A DNA stretch of 64,000 nt from Loxodes magnus. Taxonomy: Eukaryota > Ciliophora > Karyorelictea > Loxodida > Loxodidae. Each line of letters starts with the position of its first letter. Positions within the stretch are counted from its first letter, which is position 1. This document shows, one piece after another, positions 19,595-50,309 of the stretch. The position numbers and the translations under genes were made by a program. A model generated the notes under the pieces. The model was not told the origin of the DNA, ran no database searches, and saw only the letters and a list, made by a program, of their open reading frames with translations. The stretch spans positions 62,001 to 126,000 of the forward strand of contig CAMPDV010000681.1 in assembly GCA_946699065.1 (NCBI GenBank). The letters run 5' to 3'.

Positions 19595-22189
19595 ATGGAT
19601 ATGTAACAGTGTCCTAACTGTAGAAATGCTTTCGATTAAGGTTAGTTTTAAGCCAAGCATCTTCCTTGCAACTGTGTTTCATGTTTCAACTGTTTAAATA
19701 CAGTATTCTAGATTACAAGAATGGTATATTGTATAAATCACCAGCAAACTTTTATTATAAGTCCTTAGGATCTACAAAACTACATGGTACAATAACCAAT
19801 ATAACCTTTGTTGTCTCAACAACCTCGTGCATTGGATTAAGTATGGTTAAATCAATAACTCGATTGGTTATAGGAATAATAGAATTAGAAATAAGAGCAG
19901 CTATAGTTTATAAGAAATGCTATCAATGGTGTTAGTTAGTAGTGGAATAATATCTGCTAGTAGGTAATTAAATGAATATTCAAGATCTTGATAGAATAAT
20001 ATTCTTAAAGAGTTAATAGAATTAAGAGTTTACTGAATCGTCTATCGGAACTCAGCATTTAATAATAATAGTAATAGCGCTAGCATATCCACCAGCAGGC
20101 AAATCAGTATTAGCTATATGAATAATAGTAGTAATTTACGGATATCTTAAGAGAAATCAATTTGATAAAGTAAGAATAGAATTTAAATTTGAATGATTAA
20201 GGTTTGCGATATAATATTCAGTATTATCTCTTAAATGCCTTCAATTTTCTGAGAGATCATTCATAGGGTTAGATATTAACTCAGTAAAAAGCCAGTTAGT
20301 TAATAGAATCTTATTTCAGTTAATAAAATGTAATAAGTGGTTTATGTCAAGGTCAATAATAATAATAGTAGTTTCAACAAAAACAATTATAGGATCTTCA
20401 ATAATAAGAAATATAATAAAGCCAATAACTATAGTTCTTATATTAAGACTAAGCCTCCCTAAGACACTAAAGTTAAGACAAATAATAAGTTTAAGAGTAA
20501 CTAATGTAAAAAGACTAATCTCAGTTTAATATATACCAAGAAGTTTCAAGTACTCTATAAAGAAAAGATTAAAAGTTACTTCAACATATTATTGAACTTT
20601 AGTTAGAGTAATAGAACTTTTAAGTTCAATAACTTTAAGAACAACCTAACTTGATAAAATAAGCCTTAGTAGACTTCAATAACTTAACGTTCGAATAGTT
20701 AATTCAAATTCTAGACCAACTAATATAACAATAACAAAGTATTGATATTTAATTTTTGAAGTAACATCCTTTAAATCACTCAAGCTTAACCCTTTAGACC
20801 TAAATCTTATTATAATTATCTAGGGTATCTAACTTATAACTGGTTGATAAATTAAATTAGGTATTATAGTTATCTAGATCATTATAGGAAGTATCGTAGG
20901 TATCATCGAATGTGATAACGATACTTAACTACCTGAATGTTAAGTTTGCATCATAATAAAATTTCTCAAACATGAGATTGGTGCAAGCAGATCTATCGGA
21001 CACAACATTTACTGAATGTGATTTCTCAAATTCAAGTTTCCATCAATGTAATTTAAGGAATACTAAGTTTATCGGTTGTGTATTGAGTAATGCTGATCTT
21101 TCCGATATAGCAACTGAGTATCCTCATGAACTTAATTGTCATTCCTGATGCATCAACTCAATAGCTATCTCTCCAGACAATCATTATATCATCACTGGTT
21201 CAGGTGATGAAACAATTAAGATCTGAGATTATTAAACATCTGCTTTAATCAATACTTTATCCGGACATACTGATTATGTTACCTCGGTAGTAATCTCCTA
21301 TGACTCTAGATATATAGTATCAGGTTCAGGATATTTTGACAAAACAATAAAGATCTGAAATTTCCTTGATGGTACTCTCCTGAGAACTTTAGAAGGACAT
21401 ACTTCTTATATTTCTTCGGTAGTAATCTCCTATGACTCTAGATATATCATATCAGCATCTGATGACAAAACCATAAAGATTTGGAATTTCCCTGATGGTA
21501 CTCTCCTGAGAACTTTAGAGGGACATACTGCTTCTGTTACTTCGGTAGTAATCTCCTATGACTCTAGATATATCATATCAGCATCATGAGATAAAACTAT
21601 TAAGATATGAAAGTTATAAAGTTCATTTTGGGATTTTTTATCTAGTTCCTGTGTTAAAACTTTAGAGGGACATACTTCTTATATTTCTTCGGTAGTAATC
21701 TCCTATGACTCTAGATATATCATATCAGCATCTGATGACAAAACCATAAAGATTTGGAATTTCCCTGATGGTACTCTCCTGAGAACTTTAGAGGGACATA
21801 CTGATCGTATTACCTCGGTAGTAATCTCCTATGACTCTAGATATATCATATCAGCATCTTATGACAAAACCATAAAGATATGGTCTTTTTCAGCTGGTTA
21901 GTGTGTATTAACTTTGAGTGGTCGCAAATATGCAATATGGTCCTTGGCATTATCAAAGGATTCAAGATGGATCTATTCTGGAGATAATTGAGGTAGCTTG
22001 AGAAGATGGAATGTATAGAGGTTGTTAAGTGTTGATGAATCTGTGGGATAGGTAGGTGTCAATTTAGATATTTTAACAATAAAGTAGTTGGATTGGAATA
22101 GTGTATATGCTCCCTATGGAATGAGATTGAGTGATTGTGAAGTAAGCAACATATAGATGAGTGAGTAGGATTTCTAGAGAAGTATGTGA
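19595..22189 (+). CDS. RING, Gln-rich linker, pentapeptide, WD40 protein (copy A)
   Basis: This frame of about 864 codons reads with TAA/TAG as Gln and TGA as Trp. Residues 6-49 form a RING-like zinc site: C6xxC9, C25xC27, C30xxC33, C46xxH49, with LPCNCVSCFNC as its core. Residues 60-455 are a Gln-rich coiled-coil-like linker. Residues 460-512 are a pentapeptide-type block (ADLSDTTFTECDFSNSSF). Residues 515-840 are seven WD40 blades with repeated TIKIW and LEGHT. The start is the first ATG before the RING and is conserved in A, B and C. The end is uncertain: TGA TGA at 22187-22192 is the best stop because the second TGA is also in B. The domain plan suggests a ubiquitin E3 ligase that recognises partners through the propeller. 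This is inference from RING/TRIM and WD40 families; no substrate can be named. Frame and domain spacing are kept relative to copy B. Confidence 0.85.
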
Positions 22190-22264
22190 TGAGATGTTTT
22201 TATTAAATGAATTAACTTATTAAATTAATATATTTATTTAGATTAATGAGCTTAAGTGTTTGAA

Positions 22265-22450
22265 TAATCAATATACTACTATATACAGTTATACTGTTAT
22301 ACAGTTATATTGTTATAATACTAATCTATAATACTATATATAAAATTATACAGTTATACAGTTATACAGTTATACTTATATACAGTTATACAGTTATAAT
22401 ACTAATCTATAATTTTATTATACAGTTATACAGTTATACTCATATATAAA
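22265..22450. repeat. TTATACAGT simple repeat (copy A)
   Basis: This is a 9-bp unit TTATACAGT in imperfect tandem array just after the gene, broken by AATACTAATCTATAATTTTA segments. It is matched in copy B at 50380-50490 with fewer units. Confidence 0.8.
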
Positions 22451-22929
22451 AATAACAATGATATTATACGGTTAAACAGCAATGATAATAAATTTAAGGT
22501 ATACTAAAGTTGAGTTACAACTCTAAGCAATAATGTAGCAATGTAGTTGAATAAATATATTAATAATAATAAAGTATAATGATATAAGTTTTTGTTTAAA
22601 TTGTTGAGGTGTAAGACAAGAGTATGTAATTTGGATTACGATTAAATTTGTGTAAAAGAGGGTGTAAGTATTTACTAAATAAAGAATTGAATGTGTTAAT
22701 GATTTTTTTAAATCTAAAAGAGTAATTGCGTTATTGTTTAAGTATTTTAAAAGGATAATTATTTTAAGAATAGTGGAATGTTTATTTATTATTTTTTTAT
22801 AATAAAGATTGGGAATAGTGTTTTGTGAGAAGAGAGAGGGTTGAATAACTTAAAGAGTATAAAAATTAAAATAAAAAAAGCATTTGAATTTTTAAATATT
22901 TTTTTATTGAAAGAGGAAGAAAGCATATG

Positions 22930-23065
22930 GAAAATTATAAAAGTGATTATTTTTTAAATTATAAAAGTTTTTGTGTATTAAAAGTTTTCTGTTATAAAAG
23001 TTTTATGGTATAAAAGTTTCTGTTATAAAATTTTTTAATATAAAAGTTTTTATATTGTAAAAATT
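22930..23065. repeat. TATAAAAGTTTCTGT tandem repeat (copy A)
   Basis: About six or seven degenerate units of roughly 15-17 bp carry TATAAAAGTTT plus a short variable part. Equivalent arrays lie at 51005-51085 (B) and 585-640 (C, inverted). Confidence 0.65.
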
Positions 23066-23219
23066 TCTGTGCAATATTTAATTTATAAATTTTTTAGGAG
23101 TTTACGGGTGAATTAAATAGAAGGTGTAGTTAAATTTTAATTTTAATTTTAAATTTGTAATTAATTAGTGTGATAAGATTGATATTTGAGTGTAATTTTT
23201 GTGAAAACAAAAAATTTAT

Positions 23220-23270
23220 TTTTTTGCTCAGCGTTTTGCACTATAAGACATTTTTTTGAATGGACTAAAT
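23220..23270 (+). repeat. Conserved tail motif A1
   Basis: GCTCAGCGTTTTGCACTATA followed by AGACATTTTTTTGAATGGAC. This is the first of three copies behind gene A, about 1 kb after the stop. It is preceded by a T-run and stands out by GC content. Confidence 0.7.
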
Positions 23271-23710
23271 TTTTGCAAAATGGGACAAAGGGTGTGAGAG
23301 GGTATAAAAAGTTTAAAAGGTGTTAAAAGATAGAAGTGATAAAATTTTTGAATTAAAGGAATTAAATTTTAAGAAAGGAATTTTAAAATTATTTTAGAAA
23401 AAAGTTTAAATTTTTGATTTTTTTTAATAAAAGGAATATTTTTTTACAGCATTTTGGTTATCTTTTTTATTTTGAATTTAAAAAAGTTTGAAAATTTAAA
23501 AAGGATTTTTTTAGAGAGTTGAACATATTAGTGAAACGGAAAATTTTAATTCAAAAAAATATTTTTAAGAAAAAATTTTAATTTTTTGAATCTGAATAAA
23601 ATTATTTTTCGATATAAATAAGAACAGGGATATATTTTAAAAGTTTTATAAAAAATTTTTTTTTGAATTAATAAATGAATAATAAAATGCCAAAAATTTA
23701 ATTTTGTTTT

Positions 23711-23757
23711 TTTGCTCAGCGTTTTACACTGCAAGACATTTTTCGGATGGACTAAAA
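23711..23757 (+). repeat. Conserved tail motif A2
   Basis: GCTCAGCGTTTTACACTGCA followed by AGACATTTTTCGGATGGACT. It lies 488 bp after A1 (core to core) and has the same T-run in front. Confidence 0.7.
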
Positions 23758-23970
23758 TTTTTTAAAAATTTTGAAATAAGATTGAATTTATAAAAGTGTA
23801 AAAAAATCGGTTAAGTAAAAAATTTTTGATTTTTAAAGGATAAACTTGTAAAGTTGTAGATGGACTTGAATTTGAATGTATTTATACAAAGTAAGGACTG
23901 AGATTTAAAAATTCCAAAAATATTGTAAATGTAAACATAGATAATGTGTAAAAATTTTAATTTTGTTTTT

Positions 23971-24016
23971 TTGCTCAGCGTTTTACACTACAGGAAAATT
24001 CTCGGACGGAATAAAA
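23971..24016 (+). repeat. Conserved tail motif A3
   Basis: GCTCAGCGTTTTACACTACA followed by GGAAAATTCTCGGACGGAAT. It lies 259 bp after A2. The second half is variant compared with A1 and A2, and copy B has the same variant at the same place. Confidence 0.7.
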
Positions 24017-24859
24017 TTTTTTTGAAAAATTTCAAACTAATACTTTAATATCAATTATTTTTTTCAGCATGTTATTTTCGCAGTAATTTAATAGAGAAAT
24101 TTATTAAGTAAAAATATTAAATTAAAAATAAGCTTTTTCCATCTCAGAAGTTTTAAAAAGCCGAAAAAAATTATTTAATAAAAGAAAAACAAAATTTCTT
24201 AAGGCAAATTTATTAAAACTGATTAAATTTTTAAATTGAATTTGAAGAAATAAGAAAGATATGGATTAACTGTAGAAGAAAATTTAAGGCTCTAAATTTT
24301 AGTATGGAAATATGTAAAATTTCTTGATGCTATACAATATCTTTAAATTATTTTTTAACTAATATAATTAAAATAAGTTATGTTCCGTATTATAAACGTT
24401 ACCTTAAATTTTAGAATAAATAAGATATCTAATACTTTATTTATGATTGAAGAGATACTAAAAAAATATTAACAAATTTTAGGTATTAAAAGAATTAATA
24501 ATTATATGACAAACAAAATTATAAATGCTAAGTAAATAATTTAAAAATTACTATATTAAAGTATTAAATTTTTATTCGTCAGCAACTATAATTTTAACAA
24601 ACTAACATTTTTATAATAAAAATTGGATTTTTTTAATTATTTATAGAAAATATGGGAAATTTAAATGAGATATTCAATTAATTCTTAGAAATAAATATTA
24701 GGTTTTAAGTCTAAATCTATTTTATAACTAGTTTATATATATCACTACTATTTATGCTTTATCAATATTTTAACTTTAAAATAAGGTATATATAACTAAT
24801 TAGTTAATTATAAACCTAAATTATTGATTGTTTATAATTAAATAATTATTGAATTTAAT

Positions 24860-26100
24860 TTGAAATAAAATAAACTTTTTAATAAAGAAAATTAATGCTT
24901 TAAATTATCTATTTATTAGCATATCAGCAAATAAAATCAGATTATTTTGCTAATTTTTTATAATTAGAGATTCTGAATTATATTCTGATCTTTTTACATT
25001 AATTTTACTTTTAATACGATTTAAAAAAGCAAATAAGGTTAATAAAGAAGCTTATTTTTTAAAATATCCAAATAATAAGATATAAAAGCAAGAAATTATT
25101 AAATAGTAAATTGGATAAACTAAAAAAGAAAAAGTAGAAAAGATATGATTGTTTAATAAAATCTTATTAGTTTATTAACTCCTTTACATAATCTTTAAAA
25201 TTCATAATTTATTGTTAAATCAACTTAGGGTAAGTGAATTTTAGATTTTGATAAAGTAGAACTTGTGTAGATGGGTTTAAAACCTATCACTTGGCCAGCA
25301 TCTAAATTTCTAATAAATGCTTAATAGACTAAGAATTATTTTAGTTTAAAGTTTTTAATAAACAAGCTTAAATTTCCAGCGAATAAATAAAAATTAAAAA
25401 GTAAGAAAAAAATGATTCCAATATGTATGTTACTTTCAGTGAAATGTCCTAAATTTTTCCAATGGAAATTATAAGTAATTTATAAAAAAAAATTTTACAG
25501 CAAATTAGAAACAAAGTAATCTTTATAAAATCCTTCTTCTACAGAAAAAAATAGTTAAAAATGCTATAATAATATATTTAGATTACTAACTATTCCAAAT
25601 GCTACAAAAAGTTTAATAACCTACAAAGATTTTAAAATGGTATAGTAAATATTTACTTAATTATAGATATATAGCTTTATTAAATTTTATAATTAAAATT
25701 TAAATCTTGCTAATAGGTTTTATGGATATATAAATGAGATAAACATTTTTCATTAGATTAAATAGAATTAATATGTAATTTATTAACTACTCAGTAAATT
25801 TGAACTATCTAGCAAATTAGTGATCTACATAAAATGTTTTGCTGTAAAAATAACTAAAAACTATTTTATTATTTTAAATAATATTTGATAGTATTTACAG
25901 ATAATTACCTTTTATCATCTTTTAATCCTTAGAATTTCTCTAAGCATTATTTTTATTTTAATCATTATATTTGGATATAGATGCTAGATTTTTCATTATT
26001 GACCATATTACAAAAAAATAGAATAAAGCAATAAAAATCCTACAAAGAAGTAATTATGAACTTATATAAGTTATACTGCATTATGAAAGTGTAAATATTA
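24860..26100. other. AT-rich region without recognised genes
   Basis: This region is long A/T runs with no motif that I could assign on either strand. Confidence 0.4.
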
Positions 26101-26119
26101 ATTCTAAATACTCATGAAA

Positions 26120-26880
26120 ATGGAAATTAACAGAACATAAAAAATTAGCAAAGAAAGGAAGGAGATAAGCTTGATTAAAAGTGAAAAAGCAAAAATCAAT
26201 AGAAAATTATCATAGAATCAAGGCAAAAACTACAAGGTAACTAGATTATCATCTCAACAATCGAATAGGAAAATCATCCTGTATTCAAGTAATTTGACAA
26301 AATGAAGAAAACTCTTAGCAAACAGGATGAGGTAATTTCATTCTTTCAAATAAATTAAGAGAACTGATGATGCATCTTGAACAACTTTTCTTAGAAACGA
26401 CATTTTTATGGAAGTAATTTATTCAAAATAAAATCTTAACAGAAGAATAACATTGATGTTAATTCTAGAATAAATAAATAGAGGAATTTCAATGACCATT
26501 GAAGAAATTAAAATTGATATTGATACTTATCAATTAAATTATTAGATAGAAATATAAAGAACTAAGATAGCAAAGAAGAATGTAAAAATTATAGAATTTA
26601 TTTCCAAAATAAAAGCATAAATAGAAAAAAAGTGCTGATACTGCAAATCTTCCTAGCATATAATAAAAGCTGCTTTTGCTATAAATGACTTGACAAGAAG
26701 AATAAAGAGATTGAAGAGAATTAGTAAGACTTTTTATAGCAATAGAATCTAAAAAAAGACTAGATACGAAATAAACCATTGTCAAATGGAGGGAAGTTAT
26801 AACTAAAAAGGTATAAAAAACTTGAAATTACTCTCCATTTATTGATATATTTAATATTACAATTTGATATTATATCTAAG
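26120..26880 (+). other. Coding-like Lys/Gln-rich stretch with CWYC motif
   Basis: Reading from ATG near 26116 under the local code gives a Lys, Ile and Gln-rich chain without an obvious end. It includes KKCWYCKSSQHIIKAAF at about 26620-26675 (its Trp is a TGA). A similar CWYCKSQRIKYG text occurs on the minus strand at about 27495-27535. C-x2-C followed by a basic segment could be half of a zinc ribbon, as in some transposases, but no second pair of ligands was located. With so few stops in this code the open frame itself proves nothing. Confidence 0.25.
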
Positions 26881-27892: not shown

Positions 27893-27949
27893 TTGCTATA
27901 ATATAACAATAACAAATTTTATTGATTTCTTGTAATTATGGTAATTATT

Positions 27950-35280: not shown

Positions 35281-35289
35281 AGTAACCAA

Positions 35290-36900
35290 ATTAAAAAAAA
35301 ATAACTACTGTGTGAGGTTTCAAAAGATATCTAATTAGCAATTCAATGTTAAGTTCATAATCTCTAGATTGTATGTTATAATGGAGGAACGCGTTATTTA
35401 TAAGATGTATCTTAAGGTTTCAACCAGATTGTCTAATAAATTTAAAGATTAATGAGGATTAGCCTTACTTTAAATGTATTTATAAGAAAATTAAATTACT
35501 TTGAAACTCTTCTATGATCAAAAAGTCTCTACTAAGATTTCTTATAATGAACTAAAATATGGATTTTATGAATGCTAAATTAGCAGGGAGTTGAAAATGG
35601 ATATTGCTACTGAGTGTCAGCTATTACTAAATTTGGTTAGTGTATTGTGAGCAGTTATGATTATAAGTTATTGCTAGAAGCCATGAAAAATGCTACTAAT
35701 TAATACGATATGAACTTATACTGTAGCTATAACGAGTTATATGATTGTCCTTAGAAGCCCATAGCGTTAGCGATAATAAAAATACAAAGATGTTTTTGAG
35801 CTGTAAGTAATAGAATCTTTATCTCTTGCTTTAATAATTTTTTTATGATGCTCAGTTTCAGACAGCATAATATTTAAAGAGCGTTTGATAGTTTCTGAAC
35901 TTTTATTGCCAGAAGAGTTCCTGAAGCAGAAGAATGTAAATATTGAAAGAATCATAAAAAGATTTCTTATCAATAGGAGTGTCTCAAAGTATAGATTAAA
36001 GTAACTAATATTATACTAGCAGCGTTTTTAATGGAATTATCGTTCTTGTGATTACAGGAATATGAACCACTTCTTATATCTACAATTTTTTTTAAAATTC
36101 AAATAAATACAGAATTCCTTGAAAACTTCCTTGAATCTAAAACCACGATATAATAAGAATGGATATATTGTAGATGAAGATAAAAGCAAAAAAGAAAAAT
36201 TCAATAGTTAATATTAGATAAAGTTTCATCTCATGAAGTATGTAGAATGAATGAGTGTTAAGATCTAAAAGAAATATCGAATGATAATTAAGAAAATGAT
36301 CTAGAGTTAATAAAAGTTTGGCTCAAATGAATATAAATTATTCTTACTATAAGTTAGGAAAAGAATAGGATATTAATATTCTTTTTTTTAATTACTAGCA
36401 GACTTTTGCTTCAGAATAGTAGTTATTATAGTCAGCAAAAAAATAATTAGCTCTCTTTTAATATGGATTTGATATATACAATTGATACGATAGAGGAGGT
36501 AAAATAAACTTAAGATACCAATAAAAAAAATAGTAGAGATTTATAAAACTTATTCGGAATATCCATTGAAATTCAAAAATGCAATTGACTCAGAGGAAAT
36601 ATCTCCTTTATTGTGATCTAAATTTAATATCTAATGAGTATCTATTAATATAGAGAAGATATATTTTAGTTAACGAATAATAAAATGATAATTATTTTGA
36701 TTATAGAGCATTAATCTCATTTAATTGAACTAAGCTTAATTGGTTTTGTATAATAGCTTAGTGATTGAAATGACTTAGTTAAACAATGAAATTAGTATTT
36801 ATAGAGATAAAATGATTAGTGATAGAAAAGATAATAGAAATAGGAAATATTGATGTATATTAAATAATAATAGAGTTATAATAGAATTACTAAGATTAAC
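35290..36900 (+). other. Coding-like region, possible Cys-rich membrane protein
   Basis: The + strand gives KVSTKISYNELKYGFYECQ near 35520-35580. After a frame change come GYCYWVSAITKFGQCIVSSY and NLYCSYNELYDCPQKPIA (to about 35770). Next is RRVPEAEECKYWKNHKK, followed by a hydrophobic run VTNIILAAFLMELSFLWLQ (about 36005-36060) that could span a membrane. A polar region with DKVSSHEVCRMNECQDLKEI follows. The order suggests a Cys-rich outer domain, one membrane segment and a polar tail. At least one frame change lies near 35595. No family was recognised. Confidence 0.3.
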
Positions 36901-36949
36901 TGTATATTAGTTAATAATTAGTATTTTTATAAGAATTTAGCTAAATTAT

Positions 36950-37795
36950 CCTATATGATAGACTTAAAGCCTCTAAATTTAGGTAATTTGAGTATAAATA
37001 TAAAATTGAATGTTTTTTGTGAATTTTAATCTGTTTGATTGGGAAAAGAGAATAAGAGAAATGGTTGAAGTAATATATATAAAAGTTAAAAGCACTAAAC
37101 TAGGTTGTTGATTTGAATCTTTTTTCTATTTAATTTGATTAATAAAATTTTCTTATTTAGATTTAATTTTTTATCTATTTACTAAAAATATCTCCAAAAT
37201 GTTTATAATTCCAAATTAAATAGTAAATCACATTTAATAAGTTAAACATAATTCCAATATAAATATTCATTTTATTAATAGCTCTCTTAAAGTAAGTATT
37301 ATTTAAAATCATTCTATTTTATGCATACTCAAAATCATAAGTAAAAATAGATTATGCTTTAAAATCTTATATATACCCAAAAAATTTTAGATACATATTA
37401 TAAACAAAAAAATAATAAAATATAAGATACAAAAAACATTTCAAATTATTATAGAATACATTTAAATCATTAACATTAACTATCATTCTCAAATTACTTT
37501 ATATTCATCTTCCTCAAATATTTACACTCTATTACTAATACAAAACATACCAAAATACTATCAATACTATCAATATCATTAACTACTTTTAACTATTCCA
37601 AATCTTATCTTCAAAAACATTATCCCATATAATTCAATTATTATTACTATTTAACTTACAACATTATGCCTTATAACCTACACTCAACAAAACAAAAACA
37701 TTCCTAATAATACATTTAATCATCAACACTATAACATACAACAAAACCATAACCACAAAATTAACACTTATATTCAATCAAAAATAACTAGACAT
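36950..37795. other. AT-rich region left of LINE c
   Basis: No coding or RNA signal is recognised. From 37440 the + strand becomes C-containing simple sequence (CTATCAATACTATCAATATC), unlike the surroundings. This could be the 5' untranslated part of the LINE. Confidence 0.3.
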
Positions 37796-37799
37796 ACAT

Positions 37800-40700
37800 A
37801 AATATAGGGGTTAACCAGTTGTAATTAGAATAAGAAAAACTAAATCTACAAACATCAATATAAGAGGATTAAGACCTTACAAAATATTATTACTTCAATT
37901 CATCCAAGAAAATAAGATACACATTATGTCCAAATAAGAGATTCATGTACCTCAAATTTAAGACATCCTATATCTTTACGGATTCAGAGCTACCATAAAA
38001 GCAGGCATTTATCTAGTAAAGTGTGGCGTTTTACGTTAGAGATAAACGAATTAAAAGAGTAAAAAAATGAAGTGGATGGACTTAACTAAGCAGAAATATA
38101 TTAGAGTTGCAGATAATTAGTTTAAGCCTTGATAGTAGATTAGCGATAATTAGCATTTACGCACTCACATCCTAAGATAAAACAGAACTGGGTATTTTCT
38201 ATGATGGCGTAAGATATTTTGTTCATATAGCAAACGATTTAGAGCTTTAAATACTAATTATGGGGGATTTTAATGCTCATATGCCAAAATCTTTACCAAA
38301 TAAACAAAATGTAGTAGGACGATACCTATCAAATTTTATGCAAAGAGTTTAATCTGACATGAAAAGACCCAGATTAAGATCCAACATATATCACGGTAAT
38401 AAGGGAGAGGTAGATTCAAGATTGACTACTATCTAACAGACCAATTCATTACGCACAAGATAATATAATCTAAATTCTATCAAAGCAGGATATTAGGAAA
38501 TCATTAACCTGGCAGACTAATATTATGTATAGTAAAAAAATAGTGATTAAGTAAAGTAAAAAAAGATCAGTTTTAAAAAACTTCAATAAATATTGGTATA
38601 AGAAAATTTCTAGAAATGAGTTGAAGATATGGAAATAAGCAAATTCTCTCATCAAAATTGTGAAAAATTCTATGACAAATTATAAGAATAAATTTAATAA
38701 GGCGCAGCTCTAATATGTGGACATACTACTTCTATGCCGAAACAACTAAGAAAATAATTCAAAAATAATGTCATAAAAGTAAAATGATTAATAAGATAAG
38801 CCAGATATAATACGAGAGATCAAAATAAGATAGGAATATAGACAAGGTATGAAAAAGATTATAGAAATCAATTTAATATTCTCCTAGATCCAGTAAAGGG
38901 AACCTAAGCAATATATGAAAGAATATGCAGAGATTATATAAAAGAGGAAAAATAGCATGTTGAATACTAATAAATTAAGAAGACATCCAACTCTTCAAGG
39001 CAAGTTGAGAAAATCTCTATAAGAATAGAAATAATAATCTACTAAATCAATTTAGAAATAAATAACCAATAGAAATCAAAATGGTAGAAATTGAATAATG
39101 TATAAGAAATCTATCACAATGAAAAGCAACAGGATCAGATCAAATAAAATCAAGTACAATAAATTCCGGAGGGTAAAAATTAATAAAGGTGATGACTCAG
39201 ATAATAAAAAAATATTAGAATCAGGAAATATTCCTAGAAGAACAAAAGAATCATATATTAAACTTATTCATAAAAAAAATAAACACAGCTAACCCGATGA
39301 ATTGAAGACCTATTTCCCTTATTAATAATATCCTAAATATTATAAATCTATGGATATTCGAATAACTAAATCTTATCTAATTAGACTTTACGATGAATTA
39401 TAATACAGTTTTAACCCTAATAAATCTTACGCTCAACATATTTTTCAACCTCAGAACTATCTAGGAGCATCTTTATAAAAACAATAAAGAAGCATTTTTT
39501 ATTTTTATTGGTATAATGAAAGTTTTTAAATCAGTTATAAGGAAGATATATGACAAAGCTTGAAATAGGAGTATCAGAATAATTAATAAAACTTCTTGCT
39601 GAAATATACAGAGAAGAAGACATTAAATTGAGAATAAATTACCTCTTTTCGGATAAGTTTATTACAGAAAAGGAAGCCAAATAAGACTGCACATGTTTTA
39701 CCAGTATCTTCAATATTATAATAAATATACTTCTAAACAAACTAAAAGAAAATCATATTGGAGTAGCAATAGAACTAAAAACAGAATATTATACAATGCA
39801 AAGATATTGTGGTGCAATAGCCTATGCTGATGACATAGCTTACATAGTTTAGCCAGACTAAGTACAAAAAAAGATTGAAGATTAGACACATGAGCTGAAA
39901 GTTACATCTTGTCAATAGCTGACAAAAAAATGACTATTATGAAATGGAAATAATATGACACTCTAAACGACAATAAATTAATTGATATGGAAATATAAAG
40001 TTTAAATATTTTTAAGTATCTAGGTCACGGAATATAAGAGGAAATATTACACTAAAAACATCTAGAGTTTAGGATTACTGAATGTTAAAAGACATAAGGA
40101 TGAATCCTTTATTAAATCACATTATAAGAAGGCTTTACACCATATAATGCGCAAATGATACTAAAAGCTTTATCTAAATTTTCGGATATGGAAGTTAATG
40201 TATTCCATTCATTGAAGAAACTATAGGTAAAAATAATAGAAAATAGAAAAAATTTGACGTAGATCCCTTAGAGTGATAATAGATGGATCTTTCTGCAAAT
40301 AAAACGAAAATATTAAGATGCGAATTACAGTTTACTAAAATTTAATTCTATTTATGATAACAGATGTAATATTCAGATACAAACTACTATTAAATTTCGA
40401 ATCAACAGTAGACGGTTGAATGTATCTGCTAAAAAACAACATCCTATTTGAAATTTAATCTTTAAAAGTTCTGATAAACTGCAATCAATGGGTGAATTAT
40501 AGTTTAGGAAGAATGAAATGAAAAAAGATCAAATTAATATTAAATGAAGCTATAAAATTTCACATCAATGTAGAAGTAATAAACCGCATACAGGATATTA
40601 CGACAAGTTTCATGTATAGAAGTTAATGAATGGAATCATTTATTATAGGCCCACCCAATTTAAGATACAACAAACACAGAAAATAGGAAATTTGTTATTT

Positions 40701-41515
40701 GTTTAGATTTAGAGCCAAATACAGTAGGCCGCATAGACTTTAAAGTTAAGAACTTTTTAGAAAATGATATATTTAGACTATGCTCAAATGGCGTAGAAAA
40801 TTAATTTCACATAATTGAGATATGTGGAAAATACTAACAAGAAAGAGATATATTAGCATAAAAACTAAAGACAATAGAACTTAGAAAAAACAAACAAATA
40901 TAATGCTAATTAAATTAATCTTAATCAAAATTGTCTGGGGAAATTACGAGTTTGAAAGCTGAAGTAAATCATTATAGAAAGAACAAAAATCTTAATAGGT
41001 TCAAAGATTTTATCGAAAGTTTGCTAAAGAAAGTAAAATGGGATATATAAATAAAACCCTCACTTTCCATAGAAAAATAAGTTAGAATTAATGAGTCAGT
41101 TCAAGTTAGCATATCTGAATATACAAAGTATTTGTTAACAAGAAAAAACTAAAAGTAGAAAAAAGTAAATGAGACTAATTTGACACTAAGTTGGAATATG
41201 ATCTAAGAAAGGTAAAAAAAAGTTCACGGATGAAATAAAAACAAGGAAGATAAAAAAGACTACAATAGGTAATAATAAATATGCAACTACTTCAGAAAGA
41301 TTTATTAGTAGAAATAGATCCTTAATTATCGAATTAGTAAGTACTAGATAGTTGGAAGAGGAGATAGAAGAAGCATATGATCATCAAGAAGGCCAGGTAA
41401 AACTAAAAACATTTTTAGACTATTATTAACAGTAAAATTTGGTTTCTTCTTCTGAATTTTGGTGTACATAATAATGGTGGAATCACGTTATTTATATTTA
41501 TAGATTTAATTTTTT
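37800..41515 (+). mobile_element. LINE (APE endonuclease + reverse transcriptase), element c
   Basis: The endonuclease begins near 37835 (TNINIRGLRPYKILLLQFIQ in one frame), with GDFNAH at 38263-38280. The RT finger/palm shows LSQWKATGSDQI (39120-39146, Trp as TGA) and SGNIPRRTKESYIKLIHKK (about 39220-39280). The catalytic YADD in AIAYADDIAYIV is at 39823-39834, and FKYLGH follows near 40010. A basic C-terminal part runs to about 41400. The 3' tail AATAATGGTGGAATCACGTT (41471-41490) matches element a, so the two are one family in opposite orientations. Frame changes between blocks suggest it is inactive. No poly-A tail or target duplication was set with certainty. Confidence 0.8.
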
Positions 41516-41559
41516 TTAATAATAAAGTATAAATGAGGTATATCTTCCGGTTAGAAGTT

Positions 41560-42230
41560 TAAAAAGATCTTAAAGTTTATGGAGTTTCTTTTTTCTAATA
41601 GAACTCAAGCTCCTATCTCATTTTTTCCTTCAGATCTTTCGATTCCTCGATGGAAAGAAAATTATTGCCTTATGTCAGATCGATCTTCAGATTGCTCTTA
41701 TTTTTTCTCTTGCTGCGGAAATTTTAGTCATAGGTACCATCAATTTTTGCAAATACTGTATAATTTTCTTATTCCCTTTGGTTTTATTTATGTTTTTTCA
41801 TTTATTTCTCTATTTACATTGAAATATAATTAATCTATTAGGATTTTGTAGGAATTATTGTAATTTTCTTTTAATATATTTACTTATTTAATCTTGCTTC
41901 ACCCTGTTTTTTTCATCTTATTCTTGAAAAATTCAGATCTCATTTTCTATTATTTGAAGACTATCTCTTAGTATTCTTTTTCCTGTGATGTTTATAATGT
42001 CCGCCATAGTAAGGCTCTTTATCTCCAATGAAATCTTCAAATTCTTCTTTTTATTTAGATCTTCTTACAATGTTTGGATTCTTATTATCAGTGTTTATAA
42101 TAAGTCTTGCATATAAATTGGATCCATTATTTTTTATAGTTTTCTCGTTCAAGCTGTTCCAATTTGTTTTAACATTAAAGTGCTTTAATCCTTATTATTA
42201 AATTAGCTAAAATTTATTTAATTTCTTTGG
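41560..42230 (-). other. Coding-like fragment abutting the rRNA junction
   Basis: Minus-strand reading from the rRNA edge gives ALQCQNKLEQLERENYKK, then RRSKQKEEFEDFIGDKEPYY with GGHYKHHRKKN. Further on comes VFAKIDGTYDQNFRSKRKN with SIEESKDLKEKMRQELEF. These are low-TGA, protein-like blocks rich in Lys and Glu, perhaps coiled coil. Frames differ between blocks. The fragment runs straight into the broken 18S edge at about 42237, so it may be a gene cut when the rDNA piece arrived. The family is not recognised. Confidence 0.35.
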
Positions 42231-42237
42231 CGGGCCC

Positions 42238-43073
42238 TTTACCTTGAGGAAACTAGAGTGTTTAAGGCAGGCTCCTGTCTGAATACCGCAGCTGGAATAA
42301 AACTCGTGGTTATTTTTTGCGAGACTATCTACTATCTTTAATAGGGACAGTTGGAGGCATTGGTACTCAGTAGTCAGAGGTGAAATTCTTGGATTTACTG
42401 AAAACCAACTACTACGAAAGCATTTGACAAGGATGCTTTCATTAATCAAGAACGAAAGTAAAGGGATCCTAGACGATCAGATACCGTCCTAGTCTTAACC
42501 ATAAATTATGTCGACTAAGGAATCGGGGAGACCGTATAAATCTCCTCGGCACCTTCCGAGAAATCAAAGTCTTTGGATTCTTGAGAGAGTATGGTCGCAA
42601 GACTGAAACTTAAAGGAATTTACGGAAGGGCACCACAAGGAGTGGAACCTGCGGCTTAATTTGACTCAACACGGGGAAACTTACCAAGTTCAGACATAGT
42701 AAGGATTGACAGATTGAGAGTTCTTTCTTGATTCTATGGGTGGTACATGGCCGTTCTTAGTTGGTGGAGTGATCTGTCTGGTTAATTCTGATAACGAACG
42801 GCACCTCAACCTGCTAAATAGACTCTTTCTATCCGAGGAAGTTGTCTTCTTAGAGGGACTTCCAGCTTTTAGTTGGAGGAAGTGTGAGGCAATAACAGGT
42901 CTGTGATGCCCTTAGATGTCCTGTGCCGCACGCGCGCTACAATGTACTAACCAATGAGTTTCTAAGTATAGCTACTCCGGCAACCTCGTAACTGCGTCGT
43001 AGTTGGGATTGGTCCTTGCTATTCTTGGTCATCAACTAGGAATTCCTAGTAAGCGCAAGTCATCAGCTTGCAC

Positions 43074-43105
<32 letters not shown>

Positions 43106-43235
43106 TGTCGCTCCTACCGATTTCGAGTGATCAGGTGAACCTCTCGGACTAATGGGAAGTTAAGTGAACCTTATCACTTAGAGGAAGGAGAAGTCGGAAC
43201 AAGATATCCGTAGGTGACCTGCAGATGGATCATTA
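42238..43235 (+). rRNA. 18S rRNA, 3' part (relic B)
   Basis: The sequence begins inside 18S at TTACCTTGAGGAAACTAGAG and ends at GGATCATTA. About the first 40% of the molecule is missing. Normally invariant sites are altered: CACCGCCTGTCGC, AAGTCGGAAC, and GTAGGTGACC with one A missing. This argues for a relic. ITS1 follows (43236-43334). Confidence 0.9.
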
Positions 43236-43334
43236 TCATTAATATTAATATAAAACATTACAAAAATCAAATCTATTTACAGCTTTATGCTGCTTTTCAT
43301 TTTATCAAATATATAAACCTAAACAAAACAAAAA

Positions 43335-43475
43335 CCCCAACAATAGATGCCTAAGCTCTGGCGTCGATGAAGGACGCAGCGAAGCACGAAATTCAATGCG
43401 AATTGCAGGATTTCGTGAGTCATCAGGTTTCCCAACGCAACAAGCACCTTGGGGAAACTCAAGGTATGTTCCTTT
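43335..43475 (+). rRNA. 5.8S rRNA (relic B)
   Basis: The core GATGAAGGACGCAGCGAAGC and AATGCGAATTGCAGGATTTC are present, closer to the general eukaryote form than in relic A. ITS2 runs from 43476 to 43550. End positions are estimated. Confidence 0.8.
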
Positions 43476-43550
43476 CAGTATCATATAAAATACAAATGTA
43501 AGTGAATAAGAATTCTCTTACCAAGTGAAAAAACTGAGTATATGTATTTG

Positions 43551-44211
43551 TGATTTGAGGGGAGCAAAATAACCCGCTGAACTTAAGCATATCAATAAGC
43601 GGAGTAAAAGAAACTAACAAGGGTGGCCTTAGTAACGGATAATGAAGCGGTCAAAGCCCACTTGTAAATCTTCGGAATTATCAAAGTTAGGGAGGAATGG
43701 TGTTGGATTGATTGACCAAATTGGTCAGGAATGACACGTCATAGAGGGTGATAACCCCGTGAGGTTCAATTAGATTAAAAACCAAACTATCTAAGAGTCG
43801 GACAGCTTGGGATTGCTGTCCAAAGTGCGAGGTAAACTCCTCGTAAGGTTAAATACGTCCAGAGGCCGATAGTACACAAGTACCGTGAGGGAAAAGTGAA
43901 AAGTACTTTGGAAAGAGAGTTAAAAGACCTGAAATAGTTGGAGAGGAAGCTGTGCGTCTACAATAAATCTGAGTAAAGCTTTGAAAAGAAGTATTGCAAG
44001 GATATAGTGGACAGACATCCTGTCTTGAAACACAGTCCAAGGAGTCTAGCTATATCGCGAGTCTGTACATGAAAATGTGTAGGTGAAATGAAAGTGCTTG
44101 GGCAGGACGAAGCCAGGGGAAATTCTGGTGGAGGTTCGTGTAGGTGCTGATGTGCAAATCGCTCTGTAGACCTAAGTATAGGGGCGAAGACTCATCGAAC
44201 CATCTACTAGT

Positions 44212-44246
<35 letters not shown>

Positions 44247-45292
44247 ACTTTTCGTGGTATCCGGTAAAGTCAATTAATAGAGGTTCGGGAGGAGTCACTC
44301 CTTCCTCCTATTATCAAACTTTAAATGGGTTCAGTAACGTTTCATAAATGAACGTGACATGACAAAATGTCCCTAGTGGGCCAATCCTGGTAAGCAGAAC
44401 TGGCAATGAGGGCCCAACCTGAAACGGAGTTAAGGCGAAAGAACCCGTCTGCAAGAAAAGTCGTTAATCAATTTAGACAGTAGGACGGAAGTCATGGAAG
44501 TCAGAACCCGCTAAGGAGTGTGTAACAACTCACCTACAGAATGGACTAGCCCTGAAAATGGAAGTCGCGAAAGGCTGGTACCCATACTCTGCCCTCTGGT
44601 GTAGGAGGGTGTAGTATTTACATGGAGGTAATTCTGTGAAGAGCTATGGAGTATGTATTAGTGCAGATCTTGGTGGTATTAGAAAGTATTCCAATACCAA
44701 CTTGGAAGACTGAAGTGGAGAAGGTTTTCATGAGAACCGCACTGGATCATGAGTCACCCGATCCTAACCTTACGAGGAAAAGGGAATATGGTTAATATTC
44801 CATAGGTACTTACTACATAGTGGTGACACAATATGCTGTAATATGTCGGGGGAGAGTTGTCTTTTCTGATAGCATACATGCGCGCCTGGATCCATTACGG
44901 CGAGGGAGGCGTGATGTATGGAAGAGTAGTAAACTGCATGTGTTGTCTGGAGCACCAACTACGATCCATGAAACTTGAGGCATATAATATGTAGGAGTAT
45001 TTGTTCCTGTACCGCAGCAGGACTCCAAGGTTAGCAGCCTCTAGTCAATATGATAATGTAGGCAAGGGAAGTCGGCAAATTAGATCTGTAACTTCGGGAG
45101 AAAGATTGGCTCTGAGGACCAGGCAGAAATCTCCACTGGAGGGATTGTGTAACTTAATTTTCACGGAAGTGGGAGTTTTGTCGCCATGACCGAAGGTGGT
45201 CGGCCCTGCGGCGAATGGCCACCTCAGAACTGGAGTGGCAGGAGGAATCCGACTGTTTAATTAAAACAAAGCATTGCGAAGGTGATATGTTA

Positions 45293-45323
<31 letters not shown>

Positions 45324-46045
45324 AGTCAAGGTGATGAGATTCAACGAAGCGCGAGTAAACGGCAGGAGTAACTATGACTCTCTTAAGGTAACCAAATGTC
45401 TTCGTCATCTAATTAGTGATGTGCATGAATGGATTAACGAGATTCCTACTGTCATTCAGTATCTTTCTAGCAATGTAACTGAGTGAGATAAACCGCCAGG
45501 TGGGGAGTTTGGCTGGGGCGGCACATCTGTTAAAAGATAACACAGGTGTCCTACGGCCTGCTCAGAGTGGACAGAAACCGCTCACAGACCAAAAGGGGAA
45601 AAGCTGGCATCATTTAACGTCTCATTGTCAGGATAAACTGGGAAATCATGGCCTATCGATCCTTTTACGAATTTTAAGCAAGAGGTGTCAGAAAAAATAC
45701 CACAGGGATAACTGGCTTGTGGCAGCCAAGTGTTCATAGCGACGTTGCTTTTTGATTCTTCAATGTCGGCTCTTCCTATCATTATGAAGCAGAATTCACA
45801 AGTGTCGGATTGTTCACCCGTCAAAAGGGAACGTGAGCTGGGTTTAGACCATCGTGAGACAGGTTATTTTTACCCTACTGATCACTGCGTCGCCACAGTA
45901 GTCCAACTCAGTACGAGAGGAACCGTTGGTCCAGATCTCTGGTATCGTCATTGGTTGAGCAGCCCGTGTGGCTACGCTACCATCTGCATAGATTATGACT
46001 GAACACCTCTAAATCAGAATCTAATCTGGGAGCGACGCCTTCTAT
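43551..46045 (+). rRNA. 28S rRNA with internal loss (relic B)
   Basis: The sequence runs from ACCCGCTGAACTTAAGCATA to the 3' end around CCTCTAAATCAGAATC. The sarcin-ricin loop AGTACGAGAGGAACC (45911-45925) and CCACAGGGATAACTGGC are kept. A conserved stretch of 179 bp is missing at CTGTC (45449-45453), where copy A still has it. Losing this core makes a working LSU rRNA very unlikely. Confidence 0.9.
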
Positions 46046-47054
46046 CTACTTATGAAAACAATACTTTTTATATCCTCAAGCCCTCCCCATGTCTGTTAAC
46101 AGAATAAGAATGGTTCATCACATACAAGTAGATAGGATCCTTTGTAGACCACTAAGTATTGGCCTGGTGTTGTACGCATGAGAGTAAGCTTGCCTTACAA
46201 TCTGATGAGACTATTCCAAAGTCACTTGATCTATCTCTTCTTTTCTCTCTGCTGGGACTTTACTCACTTAAATACCTAGTAGTACCTAAAAGTAAGACCT
46301 AATAATACCTAGTTATAATGAGAAGTAGTACCTAAAAGTACCTAATACTACCTAGTTATAACGAGAAGTAGTACCTAGTCGTACCTAGTTGTACCGAGTA
46401 GTTGTAGCTATTAATGCCTATTTATACAAGAAGTTTTATCTAATAGTATCAAATAGTATCACTTAATACCTAGTATTACCTTGTCATACCTATTAGTACC
46501 TAGTCGTACCTTTAGTTACTTATCTTTGTATCATCTATCTAGGGTTTTACATCAAGATTCTCATTACTATCTCTACTGGGGTTTTACTTAATTTAACTTA
46601 TTTTGATTATTAAAGTACAAAATTTCACATTTTTGAAAATTTGATAAAAGAGAAAGCAAAAGAAAAAGTTTTGATAGATGAAGAATGGAACGAAGATGAT
46701 GATACTTAAGTATTAAGCACTTTAAGTGCTTCCGTTTGAGAAAAGAAGATTCAATATAAGTAGATAAAAATTAGAAAAGAGACTTGTAAGCTTAAATGAT
46801 GTGCTTAATGAATGAGTTATGTGTGGCAAAGGCGTGAATCAAAAAATTGAGAAATGCATATATAAGAAATGAAGGATGGCTAAGAAGGTAAGAAGATCTT
46901 GATATCTATAGTGGTGGCTTAGCGTATATTTTTTAAGACAAGTAGGGGTAAAAGGTGGGCTGTAGTATGGATATTTGAAGGGTAGTGTTATGAAACATAA
47001 ATGAAGGGGAAGGAAAGGAGTATATAGAAAAAGTGGATGGAAATAGAAAAGTAT
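46046..47054 (+). other. rDNA intergenic spacer (relic B)
   Basis: The first part (46046-46260) is unique and contains CTCTGCTGGGACTTTACTCA, a near-repeat of CTCTACTGGGGTTTTACTTA at about 46572. The stretch 46265-46515 is an array of degenerate TACCTAG / GTACCTAGTAGTACC units. The last 400 bp lead to the 18S start; a direct repeat of AAAAAGTGGATGGAAATAGA seen twice in A is single here. No promoter was assigned. Confidence 0.7.
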
Positions 47055-47490
47055 AAATCTGGTTGATCCTGCCAGTAGTCATTTGCTTGTCTCAAAGACT
47101 AAGCCATGCATGTTTAAGCATTTACTCGTGGAACTGTGAATGGCTCATTAAACAGTGATAGTTTATTTGATGGTGTGCTAGATAACTGTAGTAATTATAG
47201 AATACATGCAAGATGTTTATTAGATATTTAGTTTGTGCAGGAATTATAATACACAAGGACCATGAAGCATGGCAGGTCATTCAAGTTTCTGCCCTATCAG
47301 TTTTCGATGGTATTGGACTAACATGGCAGTGATGGGTAACGAAGAATTAGGGTTTAATTCCGGAGCCTGAGAGACCACATCTAAGGAAGGCAGTAGGCGC
47401 GTAAATTACCCAATCCTGAATGAGACAATAAATAACGACACTGGGCTTCGTCTCGATGATTGGAGATTCAGTATCTCTTACCTAAAGTTA
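47055..47490 (+). rRNA. 18S rRNA 5' fragment (relic B)
   Basis: The sequence starts AAATCTGGTTGATCCTGCCA and includes CAAAGACTAAGCCATGCATG. It continues through the ACCCAATCCTGAATGAGACA block and then loses similarity. It belongs to the rDNA unit that would follow in a tandem array, cut after about 400 bp. The RING-WD40 ATG lies 230 bp further on. Confidence 0.9.
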
Positions 47491-47717
47491 TTTTCTCTTT
47501 TCGGATTTTTGATAGGAGAGTGCCCCATCTTTTATGATTTGGCCCCCTTTTTTTTGGTTATTAACCATCTCTTTTTCCTCATTTTTAAAGAGAAATTAAT
47601 CTTTAATAGTTTGTATTTTATTAATAAATTAAATTTAATAATTAAATTTTAAATATTTTAATTTTTATTTCATTGTAATTAGTTTCTAAATACTAAAACT
47701 AATTTTATTTTTTATAA

Positions 47718-50309
47718 ATGGATATGTAACAGTGTCCTAACTGTAGAAATGCTTTCGATTAAGGTTAGTTTTAAGCCAAGCATCTTCCTTGCAACTGCGT
47801 TTCATGTTTCAACTGTTTAAATACAGTATTCTAGATTACGTAATTGATAGTTTGCACGAATCACTAGCAAACTTTTAATATCAGACCTTAGGATCTACAA
47901 AACTATATGGTACAATAACCAATATAGCCGTAATTGCCTCAACAACCTTGTGCATTGAACTAAGTATGGTTAAATCAATAACTCGATTGGTTATAGGAAT
48001 AATAGAATTAGAAATAAGAGCAGCTATAGTTTATAAGAAAAGTTATCAATGGTATTAGTTAGTAGTGGAATAATATCTGCTAGTAAGTAATTAAATGAAT
48101 ATTCAAGATCTTGATAGAATAATATACTTAAAGAGTGAATAAGATTAAGAATTTACTGAATCGATTATCGGAACTCAATATTCAATAATAATAGTAATAG
48201 CGCTAGCATATCCACCAGCAGCAGGCAAATCAGTATTAGCTATAAGAATAATAGTAGTAATTTACGGATATCTTAAGAGAAATTAATGTGATAAAGTAAG
48301 AGTCAAATTTAAATTTGAGTGATTAAGGTTTGCGATACAATATTCAGTATTATCTCTTAAATGTCTTCAATTTTCTGAGAGATCATTCATAGGGTTAGAT
48401 ATTGACTCAGTAAAAAGCTTGTTAGTTAATAGAATCTTATTTCAGTTAATAAAATGTAATAAGTGGTTTATGTCAAGGTCAATAATAATAAAAGTAGTTT
48501 CAACAATAACAAGTTTATGATCTCCAATAATAAGGTATATAACAAAATCAATAATTATAATACTTATATTAAGACTAAGCCTCCCTAAGACACTAAAGCT
48601 AAAACAAGTAATAAGTTTAAGAGTAACTAATATAAAAAGACTAATCTCAGTTTAAAATATACCAAGAAGTTTCAAATTCTGCTTTAAGTAAGGATTAACA
48701 GTTACTTCAACATATTATTGAACTTTAGTTAGAGTAATAGAACTTTTAAGTTCAATAGCTTTAAGAGCAGCCAAACTTGATAAAATAAGCCTTAGTGAAA
48801 TTCAATAACTTAACATTCGAATAGTTAAATCAAATCTTAGATCAACTAATACAATAACAAAGTATTGATATTTAGTTTTTGAAATAGCATCCTTTAAATC
48901 ACTCAAGCTTAACCCTTTAGACATCGGTTTTATTATAGTTATCTAGGGTATCTAATTAATAACTGGCTGATAAATTAAATAAGGTGTTAGAGTTATCTAG
49001 AACATCATAGGAAGTATCGTAGGTATCATCGAATGTGATAACGATACTTAACTACCTGAATGTTAAGTTTGCATCATAATAAAATTTCTCCAACATGAGA
49101 TTGTTGCAAGCAGATCTATCGGACATGACATTTACTGAATGTGATTTCTCAAATTCAAGTTTCCATCAATGTAATTTAAGGAATACTAAGTTTATCGGTT
49201 GTGTATTGAGTAATGCTGATCTTTCCAATATAGCAACTGAGTATCCTCATGAACTTAAAGGTCATTTCGACTGCATCAGATCAATAGCTATCTCTCCTGA
49301 CAATCAATATATCATCACTGGTTCAAATGATGAAACGATTAAGATCTGAGATTATTAAACATCTGCCTTAATCAATACTTTATCCGGACATACTTCTCAT
49401 GTTAACTCAGTAGTAATCTCCTCTGATTCTAGATATATCATATCAGCATCATCTGACAGAACCATAAAGATCTGAAATTTCTCTGATGGTACTCTCCTGA
49501 GAACTTTAGAGGGACATGCTTCTACTGTTACCTCGGTAGTAATCTCCAATGACTCTAGATATATCATATCAGCATCATGAGACACAACCATAAAGATCTG
49601 AAACTTCCCTGATGGTAATCTCCTGAGAACTTTAGTGGGACATACTTCTTTTATTTCTTCGGTAGTAATCTCCTATGACTCTAGATATATCATATCAGCA
49701 TCTGATGACAAAACTATTAAGATATGAAAGTTATAAAGTTCATTTTGGGATTTTTTATCTAGTTCCTGTGTTAAAACTTTATCCGGACATACTTCTTTTA
49801 TTTACTCGGTAGTAATCTCCAATGACTCTAGATATATCATATCAGCCTCTGATGACACAACCATAAAGATCTGAAATTTCCCTGATGGTACTCTCCTGAG
49901 AACTTTAGAGGGACATACTTCTGATGTTACTTCGGTATTAATCTCCTATGACTCTAGTTATGTAGTATCAGCATCTTATGACAAAACCATAAAGATATGA
50001 TCTTTTTCAGCTGGTTAGTGTGTATTAACTTTGAGTGGTCACAAAAATTGAATATATTCCTTGGCATTATCAAAGGATTCGAGATGGATCTATTCTGGAG
50101 ATTGTTTTGGTAGCTTGAGAAGATGGAATGTATAGAGGTTGTTAAGTGTTGATTAATCTGTGGGATAGGTAGGTGTCAATTTAGATATTTTAATAATAAA
50201 GTAGTTGGATTGGAATAGTGTATATGCTTCCTATGGAATGAGATTGAGTGATTGTGAAATAAGCAAAATATAGATGAGTGAGTAGGACTTGAAGAGAAGT
50301 ATGAGATGA
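47718..50309 (+). CDS. RING, Gln-rich linker, pentapeptide, WD40 protein (copy B)
   Basis: This is the paralogue of 19595-22189, about 863 codons, with the same plan. It has the RING-like site C6xxC9, C25xC27, C30xxC33, C46xxH49 (VCTNH in place of YCINH), a Gln-rich linker and a pentapeptide block starting at residue 460. Seven WD40 blades follow. The linker has one codon inserted and one removed relative to A, so the pentapeptide start falls at the same residue number. Codon swaps confirm the code: TGA at 49998-50000 faces TGG at 21881-21883 (KIWSF), and CAA near 48190 faces TAA in A. Blades 2-6 share long identical stretches. The best stop is the TGA at 50307-50309, shared with A. Both copies stay in frame, which suggests both are expressed. 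E3-ligase activity is inferred from the RING. Confidence 0.85.

Follow-up and report, generated by a model that had tools for sequence, protein, structure and literature searches.

All three stop codons as sense codons in a WD40 gene family of the ciliate Loxodes magnus

Introduction

That stop codons stop is a rule with published exceptions. In karyorelict ciliates, Loxodes included, a nuclear code has been described (NCBI table 27) in which UAA and UAG specify glutamine and UGA specifies tryptophan while serving as the only stop (PMC11441545). Condylostoma magnum (table 28) also has sense meanings for all three stops, but there all three codons terminate as well (PMC4967479), and a tRNATrp(CCA) with an anticodon stem of 4 base pairs has been published for it (PMC13092985). 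A tRNATrp with such a stem has likewise been published (PMC13092985) for Amoebophrya sp. ex Karlodinium veneficum, in which the three stops are reassigned as sense codons too; this organism is a syndinean dinoflagellate and an independent case. Here we analyse 64,000 nucleotides of Loxodes magnus (assembly GCA_946699065.1, contig CAMPDV010000681.1, positions 62,001 to 126,000), called the window throughout, which hold two paralogous WD40 genes, A and B, whose frames run through many in-frame TAA, TAG and TGA codons.

The macronuclear assembly of L. magnus has been reported at 706 Mbp, with micronuclear and macronuclear genomes alike, many retrotransposons, and hundreds of ribosomal RNA (rRNA) genes in head-to-tail arrays (PMC11441545). 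The genome that we searched comprises 705,730,643 bases in 7843 contigs. Our results make it almost certain that the code of these genes is that of table 27, with UAA and UAG as Gln, UGA as Trp inside genes, and UGA as the sole stop. We found no difference from the karyorelict code of Loxodes and Parduczia: UGA is the only stop seen, and coding UGA and UAA, though not UAG, are missing just before it. The code is already known, having been published for L. magnus, and our finding is therefore not new (PMC11441545). It does confirm the code from raw genome sequence and shows that one genome contains genes for the two tRNAs on which the proposed mechanism relies. The WD40 family itself merits a closer look, as its variable binding surface is less expected than the code.

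Results and Discussion

A WD40 family that stays open through all three stop codons

Read under table 27, gene A (19595..22192, forward strand) starts with the ATG at 19595 and closes with two TGA in tandem (22187-22192), and gene B (47718..50309, forward strand) starts with the ATG at 47718 and closes with the TGA at 50307-50309. Both encode a zinc-finger-like N-terminus, a Gln-rich middle, pentapeptide repeats and seven WD40 blades. Gene A contains 58 TAA, 40 TAG and 9 TGA codons in frame, the last two TGA being the tandem end; gene B contains 56 TAA, 38 TAG and 10 TGA, the last TGA being the end. A codon-bias segment search of the window returned these two genes only, while a listing of open reading frames under table 27 was uninformative because no codon is a stop there. 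A third copy, C (1131..3569, reverse strand), is diverged and frame-broken.

With 1 kb of gene A as the query, a DNA search across the contigs of the genome found relatives at 90-100% identity in at least 40 places, these being the 40 that were scored among 2187 first-look candidates. The 40 places include A and B; 20 of the other 38 were taken as loci of 10 kb (L009-L028), giving 22 copies for analysis. One of them (L026) is frame-shifted across its first two thirds and was left out of every codon count, so that all counts below refer to 21 copies, which were aligned with stop codons masked. The earlier note had claimed that the frames of A and B remain open despite many TAA and TAG and several TGA codons, and this extends to the family: 21 of the 22 copies read through in a single frame, 2589-2598 nt long, that opens with ATG and closes with the end TGA, each with 53-63 TAA, 34-43 TAG and 4-10 TGA codons, the end counted in. 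In four copies examined for this besides L026, alignment columns that seemed out of frame proved to be short gap runs, and no part of the sequence was shifted. Since the copies are related, the columns of the alignment are not independent events. AlphaFold2 run on gene B (two sequences) predicted the WD40 part mostly at a predicted local distance difference test score (pLDDT) above 85, and the remainder at low confidence.

That TAA, TAG and TGA are used as sense codons in these genes is confirmed as real, beyond chance. The earlier note had placed TGA at the Trp of WD40 blades (motif KIWDY), and the positions are exact: 21224..21226 in copy A (KI-W-D; TGA in all 21 copies) and the matching column at 49347..49349 in copy B, both on the forward strand. 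Equally exact is the TGG of copy A (21881..21883, forward strand) opposite a TGA of copy B (49998..50000, forward strand), in a column with TGG in 16 and TGA in 5 of the 21 copies. A swap of TAA and CAA that had been put near 20059 and 48190 is real and lies at 20060 (TAA in A) and 48183 (CAA in B). Overall, A and B share an identical stop codon in 84 columns and differ in 32 further columns in which at least one of them has a stop codon; 10 of these 32 are swaps within TAA, TAG, CAA and CAG, 3 exchange TGA and TGG, and the remaining 19 are of other kinds.

Across the 21 copies, TAA shares columns with TAG (26) and CAA (16), never with TGA, and also with AAA (9), TAT (9), GAA (6), TCA (6) and TTA (4), as freely varying sites would. 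TAG shares columns with TAA (26), CAG (7) and TGG (3), and TGA with TGG (7), CGA (2) and never TAA. As TAA/TGA and TGA/CGA are likewise single transitions, mutation alone does not yield this pattern. Where a conserved column upstream of the end contains TGA, either every copy has it (3 columns) or TGG is its only partner (7 columns). The exceptions to TGA/TGG pairing sit in variable or mostly gapped columns, and a search for conserved columns with TGA off Trp, which the earlier note had named as a refutation of its reading, found no case in the family.

Selection and profile scores point to the same residues. When the hypervariable columns described below are set aside, which leaves 845, the ratio of the nonsynonymous to the synonymous proportion of differences (pN/pS, from pairwise counts) is 0.398 for the 21 copies. 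For the first 12 copies it is 0.388 with TAA and TAG as Gln and TGA as Trp, and every other residue tried raises it (9 for TAA, 9 for TAG and 7 for TGA). The Pfam WD40 profile scores gene B at 250.9 bits with TGA as Trp, compared with 236.4 for Tyr, 217.0 for Arg, 212.2 for Leu, 211.1 with TGA masked, 209.7 for Gly, 208.5 for Cys and 208.0 for Ser, a profile check that bears out the earlier note.

The copies might instead be pseudogenes of a gene in the standard code, or in a code with UAR (UAA and UAG) as Gln, whose in-frame stops arose by decay through C to T and G to A changes. Such an origin would suit a repetitive family, present in at least 40 places beside broken ribosomal DNA (rDNA), of which copy C and L026 are frame-broken, and some copies of the proteases treated below that have TGA outside Trp columns look degenerate. 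Decay would not be expected to leave 21 of 22 copies in frame with a pN/pS of 0.40 outside the hypervariable columns, nor to avoid the equally easy transitions TAA/TGA (0 columns) and TGA/CGA (2 columns). In addition, UAA and UAG are used alike in eRF1, and UAR and UGA alike in well-conserved proteases. We regard the pseudogene explanation as very unlikely.

Independent genes assign the same residues

Two eRF1 paralogues (L030 and L031) lie about 35 kb apart on one contig (C196). Aligned TAA and TAG codons fall opposite Gln of human eRF1 at 8 of 18 sites in L030 and 8 of 19 in L031; internal TGA codons are absent from both paralogues, and the homologous stretch of each is followed by a TGA. 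When seven residues were tried for UAR, Gln scored best in domain 2 (147.3 bits; next Glu and Lys, 142.8) and in domain 3 (105.8 bits; next 103.8). The NIKS motif is kept in L. magnus, with the flank LTDAHGRA-TAA/TAG-NIKS compared with LADEFGTASNIKS in human, and the YxCxxxF stretch reads FFLCENTF compared with YLCDNKF; both stretches presumably carry functional meaning. In Pelota, 3 of 16 aligned TAA and TAG codons stand opposite Gln.

Papain-type proteases (PF00112) gave 154 matches in the genome search. We read 28 stretches, among them six near-identical copies (L051-L056); 8 came from the search output and 20 were picked mostly for containing TGA. The column that we take to be the oxyanion-hole Gln has TAA in 18 stretches, TAG in 4, CAA in 3, CAG in 1 and other codons in 2, that is, a Gln codon in 26 of 28, in 22 of these TAA or TAG. 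The 9 Trp-majority columns among 301 hold 31 of the 50 TGA codons, or 26 of 35 without 6 visibly degenerate copies, and the 8 Gln-majority columns hold 62 of the 234 TAA and TAG codons. The active site of one protease (L062) reads IKD-TAA-G-TAA-CGSC-TGA-AF.

These genes also bear on a code like that of Blastocrithidia, with UAR as Glu and UGA as Trp. Glu does come second for eRF1 domain 2, tied with Lys, but Gln scores higher there; in the WD40 family TAA shares columns with CAA and TAG more often than with GAA (16 and 26 versus 6), and TAA or TAG stands at the presumed oxyanion-hole Gln in 22 of 28 protease stretches. The D arm of the UUA tRNA described next, which we take to be of the Gln type, argues in the same direction, and the chance that UAR means Glu here is negligible.

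tRNA genes for UAA, UAG and UGA

A pattern for a Gln-type tRNA with the anticodon loop YTYTARA and up to 2 mismatches gave 249+246 matches, compared with 65+69 for the reversed control, and all places listed carry TTA. Three of these loci were fetched (L043-L045), and ARAGORN folds each as a tRNA with anticodon TTA. Allowing up to 1 mismatch, the CUA version of the pattern matched 105+83 places (control 1+0), and those listed are all UUA genes that deviate from it at one position; the genome therefore has at least about 180 UUA genes. A tandem array of UUA tRNA genes, spaced about 275 bases apart, occupies contig C214 at about 232600-237600.

For tRNATrp, a pattern that tolerated up to 3 mismatches matched 56+72 places, compared with 0+0 for the control; 100 of the matches were listed. 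All 100 have the anticodon CCA, none among them UCA. In 96 of the 100 the anticodon stem is of 4 base pairs, with A-C or T-C at its top; these 96 lie in arrays on C67 and C148. ARAGORN leaves the top unpaired in a locus on C67 (L048) and finds 5 base pairs in three on C110 (L032, L033, L050); on a locus from C148 (L049) it called no tRNA, the stretch having been cut too short. The tandem tRNATrp(CCA) arrays extend over about 482301-491373 on C67 and about 155442-168720 on C148, with spacings of about 190 and 241 bases. A tRNATrp(CCA) with a 4-bp stem has been published for Loxodes, and such a stem raises UGA readthrough in other systems (PMC13092985).

Of the anticodons that the earlier note expected, TTA was thus found, while CTA was missing with the pattern used and TCA among the tRNATrp matches listed; its broader claim, TAA and TAG at Gln sites and TGA at Trp sites, is upheld in the WD40 family, in the papain-type proteases and by the tRNAs. 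In our proposed mechanism, UAA and UAG would be read as Gln by the tRNA(UUA), whose genes are present in numbers and whose Gln identity and wobble reading of UAG are probable. Internal UGA would be read as Trp, most likely by the tRNATrp(CCA) that lacks the top pair of its anticodon stem and whose genes are likewise at hand.

Several observations weigh against this assignment. In the comparison of A and B, 19 of the 32 differences that involve stop codons are not synonymous under table 27, and TGA shares columns also with TTA (6), AGA (3), TCA (2), GGA (1) and TGT (1), mostly hypervariable columns. For eRF1 domain 1, Gln (52.9 bits) scores below Lys (54.0) and His (53.7), and the single TGA of Pelota stands opposite Asn. 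In the proteases, 19 of the 50 TGA codons (9 of 35 without the 6 degenerate copies) are found away from Trp-majority columns, and 172 of the 234 TAA and TAG codons away from Gln-majority columns. Four of the 100 listed tRNATrp genes, three on C110 and one on C67, have a full 5-bp stem. Finally, no CUA gene is among the matches listed, where a tRNA with a different D arm could escape the pattern; it is therefore likely that wobble accounts for the decoding of UAG. Weighed together with the evidence above, these points leave the table 27 assignment almost certain.

UGA as the only stop

The end TGA of gene B (50307..50309, forward strand) lies in a column where all 21 copies have TGA, and 7 of the 21 end in TGA TGA. 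Going upstream from the first end TGA, the nearest TAA is met after 50-191 codons and the nearest internal TGA after 66-194, while a TAG occurs 4-8 codons upstream in all 21 copies. Directly past the TGA, the G+C content of copy B drops from 0.33 to 0.10, and copy B lacks 19 alignment columns found in the others, 19 not being a multiple of three. UGA as the only stop is consistent with all ends seen, in the 21 WD40 copies and both eRF1 paralogues, a small sample made up of one family of related copies and two paralogues. At these ends neither UAA nor UAG was found as a stop.

Under a code of the Condylostoma type (table 28), UAA, UAG and UGA would each be both stop and sense. Sense use alone cannot tell the two codes apart, as all three are sense codons in either, but the end column is invariably TGA, TGA follows both eRF1 paralogues, and TAG lies within 4-8 codons of every end in the family. 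UGA has moreover been published as the sole stop of L. magnus (PMC11441545), and we consider table 28 highly improbable here. The earlier note had proposed context-dependent termination as in Condylostoma and karyorelicts; the karyorelict type, with TGA-only ends, stands, and the Condylostoma type does not.

UGA and UAA, though not UAG, have been reported as depleted genome-wide over about 20 codons before the UGA stop of L. magnus (PMC11441545). The ends of the WD40 family, a single sample of related copies, agree with this depletion. A model in which proximity to the transcript tail governs termination has been put forward from Condylostoma and Parduczia (PMC4967479), and the 3'-UTR of L. 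magnus has a median length of 41 bp (PMC11441545). By analogy with that model, which was built on ribosome profiling in Condylostoma, eRF1 would outcompete the tRNA near the 3' end; coding UGA and UAA may be missing just upstream of the end because eRF1 wins over the tRNA there.

Hypervariable positions on the WD40 blades

The variation of the family is concentrated at a few positions of the blade. With offsets counted from the blade Trp, the mean number of different amino acids over blades 2-7 is 6.8 at -25, 5.8 at -23 and 8.8 at -7, followed by 4.7 at -26, 4.3 at -17 and 4.0 at -5; the median blade position has 1. In a leave-one-out over blades 2-7, the remaining blades gave -25, -23 and -7 each time. 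Twelve such columns in blades 3, 5, 6 and 7 have a pN of 0.566 and a pS of 0.212, compared with 0.060 and 0.107 in the rest of these blades, which by pairwise counts points to positive selection at these top-face positions. Choosing the columns by codon count inflates this ratio, which was therefore re-measured at fixed offsets, a test that is not blind because the variable columns of all blades had already been seen. Codons ending in G make up 2 of 482 in the 23 columns with at least 6 codons, compared with 3054 of 17643 elsewhere. The hypervariable columns contain TGA and no TGG.

In blades 1-6 the conserved Asp comes right after offset -7, and a conserved Ile/Val at -24 sits between offsets -25 and -23. 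Judged by sequence, the offsets -7, -25 and -23 would correspond to D-1, R1-2 and R1, hotspots of the WD40 top face as defined in PMC3419727. A closely comparable pattern is known from the HNWD genes of Podospora (het-d, het-e and het-r), where positive selection acts on codons 7, 9, 25 and 27 of each repeat (PMC2873952). In both families the WD40 repeats are almost identical, with amino-acid change in excess at a small number of positions on the top face, and the codon spacing of 2, 16 and 2 corresponds to offsets -25, -23, -7 and -5 here, of which -5 is the weakest. Unlike HNWD, the Loxodes family is a multigene family beside rDNA and begins with a RING-like zinc finger and pentapeptide repeats. 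In the N-terminal 505 residues, searches against Pfam and PDB detected pentapeptide repeats, a RING match below threshold, and no NACHT/STAND or HET domain. The RING match covers the N-terminal 71 residues (zf-RING_2, 14.1-14.5 bits, E 0.04-0.06, cut-off 27.3), where the predicted fold is not confident.

We give an even chance to the reading that this is a large, diversified family of WD40 recognition proteins, with a zinc-finger-like start, a Gln-rich middle, pentapeptide repeats and seven blades, in which the frame would be conserved and the hotspots R1-2, R1 and D-1 positively selected. The family would have been amplified together with interrupted rRNA units, would parallel the fungal HNWD receptors of self and non-self, and would receive Trp on its binding face through the reassigned UGA. 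If the family is expressed, it would constitute a variable recognition repertoire in a ciliate, diversified at the positions used in fungal self/non-self recognition, and its copy number could be driven by rDNA-like amplification. Literature searches turned up no published description of it: the text of PMC11441545 has 0 occurrences of WD40, and the supplements, which may list the family, lay outside the search.

rDNA surroundings

Both WD40 genes of the window lie downstream of rRNA units on the same strand. Before gene A, small subunit (SSU), 5.8S and broken large subunit (LSU) rRNA occupy 14819..18315. Before gene B, an SSU rRNA without its 5' domain (42096..43235, with similarity from about model position 605) is followed by 5.8S and LSU rRNA (43332..46234), and the SSU 5' part (47059..47509, model positions 4-605 in Rfam) stands just upstream of the gene. 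The SSU gene is thus interrupted near model position 605, its remainder lying before the 5.8S. An LSU gene precedes the WD40 gene in all 12 loci, of the 20 fetched, that were scanned with Rfam. The SSU 5' part lies directly before the WD40 gene at copy B of the window, in 9 of the 20 fetched loci (L010-L012, L015, L017, L019, L022, L024 and L027) and in 3 of 3 further loci (L079-L081) picked from a genome search for SSU, in which the best 40 of 446 candidates were scored.

LINE remnants and other tRNA-like matches

The earlier note had also seen equal codon usage in long interspersed nuclear elements (LINEs) of the window. Both of its peptides are present: LSQ-TGA-KATG at 39111, in a frame-broken LINE remnant (36801..40800, forward strand), and GST-TGA-SPRLF at 5387, in a frame-broken stretch (4000..7600, reverse strand) that has no Pfam match in any of three frames. 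The reading frame shifts several times around both peptides. Pfam searches of the LINE frames gave one sub-threshold match (Exo_endo_phos_2, E 7e-4) and none to reverse transcriptase (RVT_1), the profile proposed for checking them. As the copies are decayed, they are poor witnesses on the code, and they neither help nor hurt the table 27 reading.

ARAGORN and Rfam found no tRNA relevant to the code question in the window. An abundant family, GGTAGCATCAATGACTCCA, was considered as a tRNA and was not accepted in the 7 copies fetched. Rfam matches tRNA at 54927-54996 (anticodon TTT, by eye) and 55072-55144 (CGC), both on the reverse strand; ARAGORN, with relaxed settings, accepts the match at 55072-55144 alone of the two.

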